DNA of 38,410 bases from Lactiplantibacillus xiangfangensis (lineage in GTDB: Bacteria; Bacillota; Bacilli; Lactobacillales; Lactobacillaceae), in assembly GCF_001438845.1 (NCBI RefSeq), contig NZ_JQCL01000019.1, forward strand, positions 1 through 38,410, read 5' to 3'. Below the pieces are notes generated by a model, which was not told the DNA's origin, made no database searches, and worked only from the letters and a program-made list of their open reading frames with translations. The position numbers and the translations under genes are program-made. The number at the start of each line of letters is the position of its first letter. Positions within the stretch are counted from its first letter, which is position 1. Shown one piece after another: positions 12,697-16,659 of this stretch.

Positions 12697-12713
12697 CAAC
12701 CGGGGTGAGAGAA

Positions 12714-13244
12714 TTGACGGAACTAACGGATGAACACATTATCAAAGTTGCAGCGCGTGCTGGCGCTTTGGCGTTTAGAGATTATCAGTTAAAAATCAAA
12801 AAGTCTAATTATGAAAAAAAGTGTCGCAATATTAAATTGATTCTTGAAAATTATCACTACTTGGAAAAACATGTCAATGTTGATTTGCCTGAGTTGAATG
12901 CTAAGGATCAAGAGACAGTGGCAGTCATCCCTAAGTGGGAGCTTAGTGTGTATGCCATGCTTGGGTTCAAAGCACGATCTAAGTTGATGATCGAGTATAT
13001 TAATTTAGTACTCAAGGCCTACAAAGAAGATTGTAGTTACAGTACTGATGAAGCAGTGAAGCGGCGGTACCTGGTTATTAAATCGCTGTATTTAAATAAC
13101 CCGACAATTAATCGAGAAAGATGTGCAGAATTATTTCATGTCAATCATCGAACGATTGATAGGGATGTAACCGCGTCACTGCAAGACTTGTCAGTGTTAT
13201 TGTTCGGAGCGGATGCTATTAACGACATGAGTATGATGTCGTAA
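12714..13244 (+). CDS. ArpU-type late transcription regulator
   Basis: This 176-residue protein is the last early gene, the usual position of ArpU/RinA-type activators of phage late genes. The N-terminal half is helical and basic. The C-terminal part (about residues 120-165) looks like a sigma-factor-like helix-turn-helix (INRERCAELFHVNHRTIDRDV). TTG 12714 is preferred because GGGGTGAGAG lies just upstream; a GTG at 12705 would lie within that site. The likely target is the late promoter region at 13236-13280 immediately downstream. Confidence 0.8.
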   Translation: MTELTDEHIIKVAARAGALAFRDYQLKIKKSNYEKKCRNIKLILENYHYLEKHVNVDLPELNAKDQETVAVIPKWELSVYAMLGFKARSKLMIEYINLVLKAYKEDCSYSTDEAVKRRYLVIKSLYLNNPTINRERCAELFHVNHRTIDRDVTASLQDLSVLLFGADAINDMSMMS

Positions 13245-13280
13245 ACATGTCGCAACAACGCCCCAAAAGCCTGTTATATT
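13236..13280 (+). promoter_or_regulatory. Candidate late promoter with tandem activator sites
   Basis: Two near-identical 9-mers, ATGTCGTAA (13236-13244) and ATGTCGCAA (13247-13255), lie 11 bp apart. They are followed 19 bp later by an extended -10 element TGTTATATT (TATATT at 13275-13280). No good -35 box is present, as expected for an activator-dependent promoter. This would drive the tRNA-like region and, past the terminator, the late genes. Inference from layout. Confidence 0.45.
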
Positions 13281-13324
13281 AGTAGTATCAGCAAGTGACA
13301 GAGATACTAGTTATTTCCTTGAGT

Positions 13325-13385
13325 GTCATCGTGGGCTAATTGGTTAAGCCACAATGAGATGCAGGTTCGAATCCTGCCGATGATA
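13325..13385 (+). ncRNA. tRNA-like element lacking the anticodon arm
   Basis: A 61-nt element. The 7-bp acceptor stem GTCATCG (13325-13331) pairs CGATGAT (13378-13384; one G-T pair). The D arm is GGCT/AGCC with loop AATTGGTTA. The perfect 5-bp T arm is GCAGG/CCTGC with loop TTCGAAT. Only 9 nt (CAATGAGAT) lie where the anticodon arm and variable loop should be, so it cannot decode. All tRNA elbow features are intact, so it may be an RNase P substrate or RNA mimic. No CCA is encoded. Confidence 0.65.
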
Positions 13386-13390
13386 TAGGT

Positions 13391-13412
13391 GATTGGAAGC
13401 TAAGAGCCAGTC
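13391..13412 (+). repeat. Small hairpin between the two tRNA-like elements
   Basis: GATTGG (13391-13396) pairs CCAGTC (13407-13412), 6 bp with one G-T pair and a 10-nt loop. There is no T-run. It may separate the two folded RNAs. Confidence 0.35.
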
Positions 13413-13418
13413 ACTAAG

Positions 13419-13492
13419 TGTAGCTTGAGCTCGGTTGGGTGGAGCACTGAACGTATGTTTAGGAGCGTAGGTTCGAGACCTACAAGTTACAT
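13419..13492 (+). ncRNA. Second tRNA-like element (irregular cloverleaf)
   Basis: A 74-nt near-complete cloverleaf. The 8-bp acceptor TGTAGCTT pairs AAGTTACA (one G-T). The D stem is GCTC/GAGC with GG in the loop. The anticodon stem CTGAA/TTTAG (one G-T) closes a 6-nt loop CGTATG instead of 7. A perfect T arm GTAGG/CCTAC has loop TTCGAGA. The extra acceptor pair and short anticodon loop make charging and decoding doubtful, so no amino acid is assigned. No CCA is encoded. Confidence 0.6.
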
Positions 13493-13528
13493 ATGGGAGG
13501 TGAGCAGCCTCTTTAATTCTCAGTAATG

Positions 13529-13557
13529 AAGTCCAGTTAATAGCTGGGCTTTTATGT
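13529..13557 (+). terminator. Terminator after the tRNA-like region
   Basis: AAGTCCAG (13529-13536) pairs CTGGGCTT (13544-13551), 8 bp with one G-T pair and a TTAATAG loop. It is followed by a T-rich tail. It lies 47 bp before the HNH gene, dividing the tRNA-like transcript from the packaging genes. Confidence 0.7.
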
Positions 13558-13597
13558 TTATAAGGCAATTAAGTCAGCAAGTTAGGGATGATTAGTG

Positions 13598-14107
13598 ATG
13601 CGTATTAAAGTTTGTCGTAAGTCGGGATGCACCAACAAGATTCCATATGACCAGAGCAATCCGTTCTGCGATGAGCACCGTAACCTGTATCATCCCTCAA
13701 CTTGGAAACAGACAGAGCGACGTCAGTCTTATAGCAAGTACAATCGATTCAAACGCGATAAGGAAGCTAACCAGTTCTATCATACTAAGCAGTGGTCAGG
13801 TATTAGTAAGGCGCTAAAGACTCAGGCTTGTAATACATGTGCTATTTGCGGTCACACGTACGACAAATCAGGGTATCTTGTAACTGACCATATTATTCCT
13901 AGACGCGTTGACAAGCGACGACAGCTAGACCTGAGCAACCTATGGGTTATTTGCAAGAGGTGTCACTATTGGAAAGGTGAACTTGAGTCACAGGTTTATA
14001 ATTCTGATTCGTTGGTTGCAAACATAGATGCTAGTCATCGATGGAACCGACAGAAAGTTACACACTGGATTTTAGAAAAAGAAAATCAGACGCAGAATAA
14101 AAAGTAG
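13598..14107 (+). CDS. HNH endonuclease (packaging-associated)
   Basis: This 169-residue protein has the HNH core at about residues 78-127: zinc-binding Cys pairs CNTCAICG and CKRC, the catalytic TDHIIPRR (D97-H98), and NLWVICKRCHYWKGE (N114, H123). An extra Cys-rich N-terminus (CRKSGC, CDEH) may bind another metal. HNH proteins next to the terminase are required for cos cleavage in HK97-like phages, so this suggests cos packaging. ATG 13598 is preferred over the adjacent GTG 13595; AGGGATGA lies upstream. Confidence 0.9.
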   Translation: MRIKVCRKSGCTNKIPYDQSNPFCDEHRNLYHPSTWKQTERRQSYSKYNRFKRDKEANQFYHTKQWSGISKALKTQACNTCAICGHTYDKSGYLVTDHIIPRRVDKRRQLDLSNLWVICKRCHYWKGELESQVYNSDSLVANIDASHRWNRQKVTHWILEKENQTQNKK

Positions 14108-14324: not shown

Positions 14325-14792
14325 ATGGATTCCAAGAAAAAGGCGCTTAAAGTCATTACTAACGATAAAAAAATTACAAAGATGAACGGGACCGTTGATT
14401 TGGATGATATCCAGATTACACCCCCGGCTCACTTGCTGAAAAATGCGCAGGCCCTTTGGCGAATTTTGATACCAGAAATTAAAAAAATGGGCTATTTGAA
14501 GCGGGTAGATCAGTCTAATTTAGAATTGTACTGCACATACTACGCGCTTTATTTAGATGCTGAAGATGAGCTTCGGGATAATGGGGCATATTTAAGGTCA
14601 AAAACAGGTAAACCCTTAAATAAGGCGCCTCAGGCTATTCAACTAAATGATTGTGTTCGTAATATGAAATCCTTGGGGTATGAAATGGGTTTTTCGTTCG
14701 ATGCAGGGCTACGACAGCTAACTATTGCTAAGCCACATGAGAAAAAAACAAAAACTCCACTGAAAGAGGTGAAATTCGGTGCAGACGTATGA
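14325..14792 (+). CDS. terS: Terminase small subunit (P27 family)
   Basis: This 155-residue protein fits the P27-type small terminase (Terminase_4): LDDIQITPPAHLLKNAQALW near the start, LKRVDQSNLELYCTYYALY in the middle and LGYEMGFSFDAGLRQL near the end. It recognises the packaging site and passes DNA to the large subunit. AAAGGAGGTG precedes ATG 14325. Its end overlaps the large subunit gene by 14 bp. Confidence 0.9.
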   Translation: MDSKKKALKVITNDKKITKMNGTVDLDDIQITPPAHLLKNAQALWRILIPEIKKMGYLKRVDQSNLELYCTYYALYLDAEDELRDNGAYLRSKTGKPLNKAPQAIQLNDCVRNMKSLGYEMGFSFDAGLRQLTIAKPHEKKTKTPLKEVKFGADV

Positions 14793-16659
14793 TTTTACAG
14801 GTGTCAGAACCATTAAGGCAAAAGTTAAGCCATTTCAGGCAGAGTATGAGCCACTTTTAAAACAATATGATGATCCTGCCACTAAATATGCGTACCGTGT
14901 CATGTTCACTGATGATTTTGTTACTGGCCGTGATTGCCAACTTGCATGTATTAGGCATTTAAACGATTTGCTAAGAATCGGAACTGATGGTTTTAGCTAT
15001 CAATACAGTGTAGATATGGTTAATGCAATCGAATATTTTACGAGGCTGCTACCTAATCCTGATAATATGGCACAAAAGATTGAACCACAATTATGGGAAT
15101 CATTTATTCTTGATAGTTTAATCGGCTGGCGTACTAAAAATGGGACGCGTTATAAAACGGCAAATATTTCAGTTGCACGTAAGCAAGGAAAAACCTGGAT
15201 TGCATCTATGTTAATCAATTTCTATTATTTCGTTGTTTGTGCTCAGGCATCTTCACAAGATTTGCTTGTTGCCAGCTATGATAGTGATCATGCAAGTAAG
15301 TTATTTAATGATGTTTCGATTCAAGCTAAGCAAATTATGAGATTAGATGATTTTAAGGACTGGGTGGCTGAAAATGACGTGGAAGCACAGTCCTATCAAA
15401 TTATTGGTAAAGAGAACAAAAACACAGTGCGCAAAGGTACATCACAAGGTGGCGGATTTGATTCTTTCCATAATGCTATTGCTGTTTTTGATGAAATAGG
15501 TAATCTACGACCGGCATTAAATGAAACTTTGAATCAGATTACATCTGGACAAAATGGAATTCATAACAAATTGTTTGTAAAAATTTCAACGGCTTATCCG
15601 GATATCAAAGTTAAATTCAAAAGTGACCAGGACACAATGCGTTCAGTTATTGAGCATGATGCAGATCGTGATGGTGATGATGTTTTTCAAATCCTTTATA
15701 ACCAGGATTCGGAGGAAGAGGTGTTTAAGCCTGAAACCTGGGCTAAATCGAATCCTTTACTCAACGAATATCCAAAAGAAAAATCCGACAGCTTACTAGA
15801 ATCACTAATTGCGGACCGTGACCAAAACGAACGTGAAAGCACTTTGGAGACTTTTGTAAATAAAACGCTGAACTTATGGAGCCGCCGCTTTCAAAACAGC
15901 TTTTTATCGTTGGATGTTATTCAGAAAAACATCATCGATGATTTCGATGTGGCTGGCAGGGATGTCTATATTGGATTTGATGGTAGTCAGACAAACGATA
16001 ATTCATCATTTGGCATGGAGTTTCCGTTCATGAACGGTAGCAGCTCGATGTTTTACGCCATGGAACATAGTTTTATACCGTTTGCCCAGGCCAAGACCAT
16101 TGAAGCAAAATCAAAGCAAGATGGTTTGGACTATCGCAAGTTGGAACGTGAGGGATTCGTTGACGTGACCAATTTGCCTAGTGGGGTAATTAATAAGGAC
16201 CAGGTCTATCAATGGTTGATAGACTTTGTTCGACGATATAACTTGAAAGTTAAAGCTATTGTTGCTGACCCTAACCTTGCAAGCTGGTTCGTCAATAAAA
16301 TTACGAATTACCAACCTGAATGGCCAATTTTAACCTTAGCGCCAACATCATTCAATTTATCAACGCCGACCAAGGACTTTCAAAATAATTTCATCAATGG
16401 CAGCATCAATATTTTGAATGACCCACTGCTGATTGATGGGCTAAATAACGCCATTTTAAAGGAAGATAACGGTGGTGCGATTAAGATTGACCGTCAGAAC
16501 CGCACTAATGATCATATTGATACGACTGATGCGTTAATCAATGCACATTCAGAGGCGCAGAATTATTTTGAGGACTTTCATCAAGACGGAAACAATCCGC
16601 TTAATGACATGAACAAAAAACAGCGCCGTAACTTTTTCAAATCAATGTTTGGCGCTTGA
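14779..16659 (+). CDS. terL: Terminase large subunit
   Basis: This 626-residue packaging motor has an ATPase domain with a Walker A-like ARKQGKT at residues 133-139 and Walker B AIAVFDE at 233-239. The C-terminal RNase H-like nuclease has acidic residues in YIGFDGSQTND (D401), IVADPN and HIDTTDALINAH. The length is usual for the P27-associated Terminase_1 type. The start is GTG 14779, after GAGGTG, overlapping the small subunit end, so expression is coupled. Confidence 0.97.
   Translation: MQTYDFTGVRTIKAKVKPFQAEYEPLLKQYDDPATKYAYRVMFTDDFVTGRDCQLACIRHLNDLLRIGTDGFSYQYSVDMVNAIEYFTRLLPNPDNMAQKIEPQLWESFILDSLIGWRTKNGTRYKTANISVARKQGKTWIASMLINFYYFVVCAQASSQDLLVASYDSDHASKLFNDVSIQAKQIMRLDDFKDWVAENDVEAQSYQIIGKENKNTVRKGTSQGGGFDSFHNAIAVFDEIGNLRPALNETLNQITSGQNGIHNKLFVKISTAYPDIKVKFKSDQDTMRSVIEHDADRDGDDVFQILYNQDSEEEVFKPETWAKSNPLLNEYPKEKSDSLLESLIADRDQNERESTLETFVNKTLNLWSRRFQNSFLSLDVIQKNIIDDFDVAGRDVYIGFDGSQTNDNSSFGMEFPFMNGSSSMFYAMEHSFIPFAQAKTIEAKSKQDGLDYRKLEREGFVDVTNLPSGVINKDQVYQWLIDFVRRYNLKVKAIVADPNLASWFVNKITNYQPEWPILTLAPTSFNLSTPTKDFQNNFINGSINILNDPLLIDGLNNAILKEDNGGAIKIDRQNRTNDHIDTTDALINAHSEAQNYFEDFHQDGNNPLNDMNKKQRRNFFKSMFGA

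Follow-up and report, generated by a model that had tools for sequence, protein, structure and literature searches.

The question raised by this locus is what a tRNA-like element without an anticodon arm may be doing ahead of the late genes of a phage. The window, i.e. the whole 38,410-nt stretch of Lactiplantibacillus xiangfangensis DNA analysed here, carries such an element (element A) at 13325-13385, as the preliminary description had stated. Read directly, it has a seven-pair acceptor stem (GTCATCG/CGATGAT), a four-pair D stem (GGCT/AGCC) with GG in the D loop, and a five-pair T stem (GCAGG/CCTGC) with the T loop TTCGAAT. The discriminator is the A at 13385 and the CCA is not encoded. The D and T stems are separated by a 10-nt linker, an A followed by CAATGAGAT. 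The three helices had been described as perfectly paired; all stems are indeed fully paired, but pair 1:72 is a G-U wobble.

The Rfam tRNA model (RF00005) gave element A 48.8 bits against a cut-off of 29 (E 1.3e-7 in the search of the window), which confirmed its tRNA-like nature; the alignment matched the acceptor, D and T arms and left the middle arm missing. With a functional decoder tRNA it shares these arms, the TTCGA of the T loop, the D-loop GG and a covariance-model score above the cut-off. In contrast to a tRNA, it has no anticodon arm and was not called by ARAGORN, whose only calls in the window were four tRNA genes, all at the window start. An anticodon stem with a seven-base loop was found neither in element A nor in any of 68 related sequences (68/68, collected with a pattern that admitted short gaps only). 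Because there is no anticodon arm, element A cannot decode. The isolated fold is only moderately better than that of shuffled sequences (z -1.80; 10 of 200 shuffles fold equally well), therefore the significance of the element has to be sought in the tRNA model and in its relatives.

The features around element A are collected in Table 1. The location near the packaging region, which had also been claimed, was borne out: HNH, terS and terL genes lie downstream, and the portal gene comes after terL. To the earlier account must be added a second tRNA-like element (element B) downstream of element A. The 179-aa protein encoded upstream of element A has no Pfam or NCBIfam match and no similarity to RinA of phage Sha1, which matches TIGR01636 (RinA family); it is a candidate regulator by its position only, at which a late regulator is encoded in related phages. 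A sigma-70 scan gave no promoter on the plus strand of the window. Positions 1-1775 of the window contain tRNA genes for His, Gln, Cys and Leu, then an integrase gene on the minus strand; since the integrase gene comes after the four tRNA genes, the tRNA-Leu gene at 297-382 is a likely attachment site.

Table 1. Features of the window around element A.
Feature	Position	Strand	Basis
179-aa protein, late-regulator position	12705..13244	+	phrog_1558, function unknown
TAGTAGTAT, promoter-like motif common to related phages	13280..13288	+	motif, not a shown promoter
Element A, tRNA-like, without anticodon arm	13325..13385	+	direct reading, Rfam tRNA, relatives
9-bp hairpin between A and B	13388..13415	+	ViennaRNA, -11.5 kcal/mol for 13386-13420
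Element B, second tRNA-like element, irregular middle	13420..13491	+	Rfam tRNA, 35.1 bits (cut-off 29); fold z -3.16
Terminator-like hairpin, then T-rich tail	13528..13552	+	-8.7 kcal/mol; 1 found vs 0.9 expected in shuffles
HNH endonuclease gene	13595..14107	+	PF01844, E 2.2e-8; phrog_144
Terminase small subunit gene, terS	14325..14792	+	PF05119; phrog_83
Terminase large subunit gene, terL	14779..16659	+	PF20441 and PF03354; phrog_9

By blastn, element A was found in five records, which belong to the three named phages Sha1, phiJL-1 and zrk29-2. A DNA pattern for the A family matched at least 120 viral contigs (two loci, L079 and L125, were chance matches and were dropped), and a stricter pattern yielded 68 distinct sequences, the window included. 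When all 16 pairs of these sequences are counted, standard pairs fill 1076 of 1088 cells (after shuffling, 1060 on average and 1067 at most); the complete set of pairs is present in 56 of the 68. Most of the D arm, the GG in the T stem and the range of gaps allowed were set beforehand by the search pattern; in the ten pattern-free pairs (seven acceptor and three outer T-stem pairs) 668 of 680 cells are standard, and all 12 misses are found here. Every one of the 68 sequences has a 10-nt linker from the D to the T stem, the pattern having allowed 8-20 nt between its anchors. It must be noted that the invariance of T8, A14, A15 and the D stem is partly built in because the pattern fixes them, and so is the lack of arm-bearing members, because the pattern sets the allowed gap. 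In a 16-sequence subset of the family 7 of the 16 pairs show both-sided changes, and four of five measures were reached by 0/500 shuffles, the fifth by 10/500. RNAalifold lengthened the D stem of the family by pairs 8-29 and 9-28, which would compete with the canonical U8-A14 elbow contact.

A model built from element A (R1), which unlike the DNA pattern has no fixed letters, matched 173 of 350 Lactobacillaceae genomes. Most of the matches listed are of ordinary tRNA size (72-86 nt); among the matches listed, those not longer than 62 nt come from 13 of the 19 genomes of the window's genus and from at least 9 genomes of other genera. Sixteen diverged elements have both-sided changes in 13 of the 16 pairs, 99.2% of their cells pair and 0/500 shuffles reach any of the five measures, although pairing is favoured here by the fitting of the alignment to the model. 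When the order was searched with a generic model (R2), the short matches among those listed were all in the window's family; this says little on the range of the element, because ordinary tRNAs of 70-86 nt fill the matches listed. In two likely relatives a stem with a loop of four bases takes the place of the middle arm, and there is no anticodon loop: L171 has an 8-bp stem with the loop TCCG (reported by ARAGORN as tRNA-???), and L172 a 4-bp stem with the loop GTGA. The absence or uncompensated disruption of the element in related phages was mostly not seen; the exceptions, judged by eye, are two damaged copies in one genome (G227), one without a T arm (L158) and the other with additional bases separating the acceptor from the D arm (L157).

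Some further short elements were noticed. One of 57 nt, tRNA-like and again lacking the anticodon arm (L161:885-941), lies between tRNA-Tyr and later tRNA genes in an array that is partly masked, and L168:4858-4917 and L169:6001-6060 form a near-identical pair of arm-less elements. The element of L168 is possibly part of a different kind of mobile element, as it is flanked by genes for a 301-aa protein without a match and for an FtsK-like protein. Two 68-nt tRNA-like elements, at L251:9634 (plus strand) and in L280 (minus strand, 7589 on that strand), seem by eye to have a four-base-loop stem as the anticodon arm.

The same build also occurs with a different D arm, in elements of other viral contigs that are unrelated to the A family. 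A second pattern matched at least 120 viral contigs, and 54 of the 120 listed passed a test of acceptor, T stem and length; in 299 Bacilli genomes there were 6 matches (3 in the reversed control), one of which passed the structure test. The 55 passing elements were reduced to a wider set of 49 by taking out near-copies. None of the 49 was called by ARAGORN, and 32 have no other ARAGORN tRNA inside 1.5 kb. The commonest gap is 9-10 nt (22 of 48 measurable elements). Positions 15:48 are G-C or A-T in 41 of the 49, compared with 25.5 expected, and none of 10,000 permutations was as high; in the sequences this covariation is of the tRNA type, and it could have been inherited from parent tRNAs. A scan of 2.13 Mb of viral DNA gave 144 normal tRNAs, 40 bait elements, 39 A-family elements and 6 further distinct candidates without an anticodon arm or loop, five of them 66-68 nt long; some, judged by eye, retain a short stem. 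Elements that had lost the D arm were not found in the same DNA, and the reversed control yielded none, the tests for the loss of the two arms not being equally strict. Because this DNA was chosen by bait, no rates can be derived from the scan.

One explanation would be decay, i.e. that element A is a tRNA gene caught after a single deletion of its anticodon arm. Real tRNA genes do lie beside element A in some phages and near 17 of the 49 members of the wider set. One annotator labelled a comparable element of phage 3-SAC12 pseudo tRNA-OTHER, and the two copies in G227 are damaged. But the loss has hit one arm, the 6 further anticodon-arm or loop losses standing against 0 D-arm losses (in tests of unequal strictness), and the compensatory changes over the 68 and the 16 sequences require that pairing was kept long after the arm had been lost. 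Simple decay is therefore very unlikely. In the sequence comparison it is the acceptor, D and T fold that has been kept by compensatory change, which suggests that selection retains the acceptor and the elbow and removes the decoding part; covariation and conservation in relatives thus support the selection that the preliminary description had proposed.

The genomic setting was compared over 139 oriented loci by tblastn, the queries being proteins of the window and of Sha1. As many of the loci are close relatives, the locus counts cannot be treated as independent. A regulator of either kind was matched in 67 of the 139 loci, always upstream of element A, whereas HNH (90 loci), TerS (40), TerL (39) and portal (26) matches were all downstream; all were on the strand of element A. 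Nine diverged loci were searched with PHROGs. Seven of them (L156, L159, L160, L162, L167, L171 and L172; L162 and L172 are from the same genus, with equal scores) have a phrog_248 transcriptional activator as the nearest gene upstream; in L158 this gene is phrog_1558, and in L168 it is unmatched. A large terminase is among the downstream genes in 8 of the 9, and the downstream gene of L168 has an FtsK-like family as best match and a terminase family second. The motif T[AG]GTAGTAT was found in 30 of 67 loci (0 after shuffling), 50 nt before element A in 28 of them. Some of the 37 loci without it inside 220 nt have near variants at the same place, three have the motif about 350 nt upstream, and in several of the motif-less loci tRNA-Asn and tRNA-Trp genes are in its place; it is absent from the phiJL-1 group. 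Within the family the neighbourhood of element A thus varies: it may follow the motif directly or stand behind tRNA-Asn/Trp genes, and it is also present in phiJL-1, a virulent phage, about 6.6 kb before terS if the record ends are joined.

In 41 of 47 loci a terminator separates element A from the first late gene found, compared with 0/47 in mononucleotide shuffles (these shuffles, like those for the motif, preserve base composition only; the window's own terminator, at -8.7 kcal/mol, is weaker than the -9 cut-off applied in this count). Such an arrangement could mean that element A belongs to a signal in the nascent RNA which lets RNA polymerase pass a leader terminator into the late genes, for which lambda pR'/tR' and the put RNA of HK022 are phage antitermination models. 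In the window only 42 nt separate the terminator hairpin from the HNH start, therefore there is little room for a further promoter, in keeping with such leader control. The distance from element A to the terminator varies widely, however, from 38 to 667 nt, similarly built elements in other contigs show no clear position before terminase genes, and element A of phiJL-1 is far from terS. We consider control of the leader in cis improbable.

Element B and the tRNA genes bring in another possibility, that element A serves as processing punctuation: a minimal substrate at which RNase P and RNase Z would cleave the late leader, releasing B, neighbouring tRNAs or the late mRNA, the excised piece itself having no job. 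The two enzymes require an acceptor and a T arm, and element A has both. In 60 of the 107 loci with at least 700 nt of downstream sequence (L001, L134, L029 and L072, from the same phages as others, were left out) element A is followed by a B-like, tRNA-Leu-like frame, and many loci have tRNA genes before element A. These frames (L004, L101, L024 and L123 are among the loci) have the T loop TGCAAAT, from which the T loop of the window's element B differs, and inserts of 34-105 nt at the anticodon region, 37 of them distinct; all seven acceptor pairs are present in 56 of the 60, six in 2 and two in 2. In B, the frame is retained and the middle exchanged. But no B frame was found by the pattern used in the other 47 of the 107 loci, the constant linker and the conserved D arm exceed the needs of a minimal substrate, and in L136 the terminator comes about 40 nt after element A with little else in that short RNA, which leaves nothing downstream to be freed. 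On this evidence punctuation is a serious but rather unlikely explanation.

Another odd tRNA-like gene was seen in L160, not more than about 250 nt downstream of the arm-less element on the minus strand: it is tRNA-Ile-like with, by eye, a hairpin in the D loop. ARAGORN called no tRNA in the L160 locus.

Two other functions were also considered. Transfer RNA genes are common attachment sites, and element A might be a recombination or attachment site derived from one; Lactococcus phage ul36 has an element of the same build in a 551-nt stretch where the annotated feature is an integrase gene. In the window, however, the integrase and the host tRNA genes are about 12 kb from element A, compensatory pairing is a feature of RNA and not of DNA sites, and phiJL-1 has the element although it is virulent, which makes such a site most improbable. 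The preliminary description had suggested a structural signal near the packaging region; a packaging signal was not supported and was rejected as a general function: the wider set has no clear terminase link in other viral contigs, and element A of phiJL-1 is far from terS. When proteins of at least 330 aa inside 5 kb of the wider set were scanned, terminase matches were few on both sides (among the family matches listed, Terminase_6N in 3 and Terminase_3 in 2 of 40 downstream proteins, Terminase_6N in 2 and TerL_ATPase in 1 of 32 upstream proteins).

It is useful to compare element A with RNAs of related shape or size. Like skipping-rope RNA (RF02924), it has an outer stem with two inner arms, and the two have a GAGATGC stretch in common, but the T-loop region is different. 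Identity with this RNA was rejected on account of the score (25.7 bits, below the family cut-off of 36.7), the genomes (in Lactobacillales, 19 of 295, none in the window's family) and the genomic setting, a comparison of our own and no published criterion, no terminase family having been found among the matches of the 18 downstream and 19 upstream proteins scanned at skipping-rope loci. The tRNA-like domain of tmRNA and the mascRNA of MALAT1 use a tRNA acceptor and elbow without decoding; mascRNA, which is cut by RNase P, is similar to element A in size, and both, as they are described, have other hosts and other partners. The CI RNA of P4 and the C4 RNA of P1/P7 are, like the putative RNA of element A, small phage RNAs, and they are matured by host RNase P; they are described, however, as antisense regulators of immunity.

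Our preferred reading, held tentatively, is that element A is a selected, non-decoding tRNA mimic of the prophage, made in a short late-leader RNA, trimmed by tRNA enzymes and acting in trans. An RNA acting in trans is favoured because element A is kept in several neighbourhoods and because the terminator of L136 follows it so closely. A mimic is further supported by the pairing kept in the family, by the stems of L171 and L172 that have tetraloops where an anticodon loop would be, by the unrelated elements of like build with their 15:48 covariation, 32 of the 49 being distant from other tRNAs, and by the lack of D-arm losses in the scanned viral DNA. The element would be transcribed from a late promoter as part of a short leader RNA. 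Trimming is probably the work of tRNA enzymes: RNase P and RNase Z would cut the RNA, and the CCA enzyme would complete the 3' end. Cleavage by RNase P and a decoy action had already been proposed in the preliminary description. The product, of about 61 nt, may then occupy a host factor that recognises the acceptor or the elbow of tRNA. AbiEii/MenT-type toxins modify tRNA 3' ends, and a defence toxin of this type is a candidate for such a factor. Having no anticodon, the mimic would stay out of decoding and would offer nothing to anticodon nucleases. Some observations argue against a mimic, namely the damaged copies L157 and L158, the different setting of L168, the position of L161 in a tRNA array, the RNAalifold pairs 8-29 and 9-28, and the possibly parental origin of the 15:48 covariation.

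It is conceivable, though doubtful, that the phenomenon is general, i.e. that many unrelated phages carry anticodon-null tRNA mimics consisting of acceptor and elbow, and that those of Lactobacillaceae phages are made at the start of late transcription as trans decoys that engage tRNA-binding or tRNA-modifying host factors, among them defence toxins. In our literature search we did not find phage tRNAs without an anticodon arm described, although, with subscription journals thinly covered, such a description may exist in print. Pseudo-tRNA annotations, or sequences missed by ARAGORN, may conceal a conserved class of phage RNAs, and the short linker, with 10 nt in the A family and most commonly 9-10 nt in the wider set, provides a simple signature for annotation. 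If the elements act in cis, phages would be putting the processing or the shape of tRNA to unusual use as late transcription begins. Decoys would direct attention to host factors by which the acceptor or the elbow of tRNA is sensed, and the elements would constitute a ready test set.
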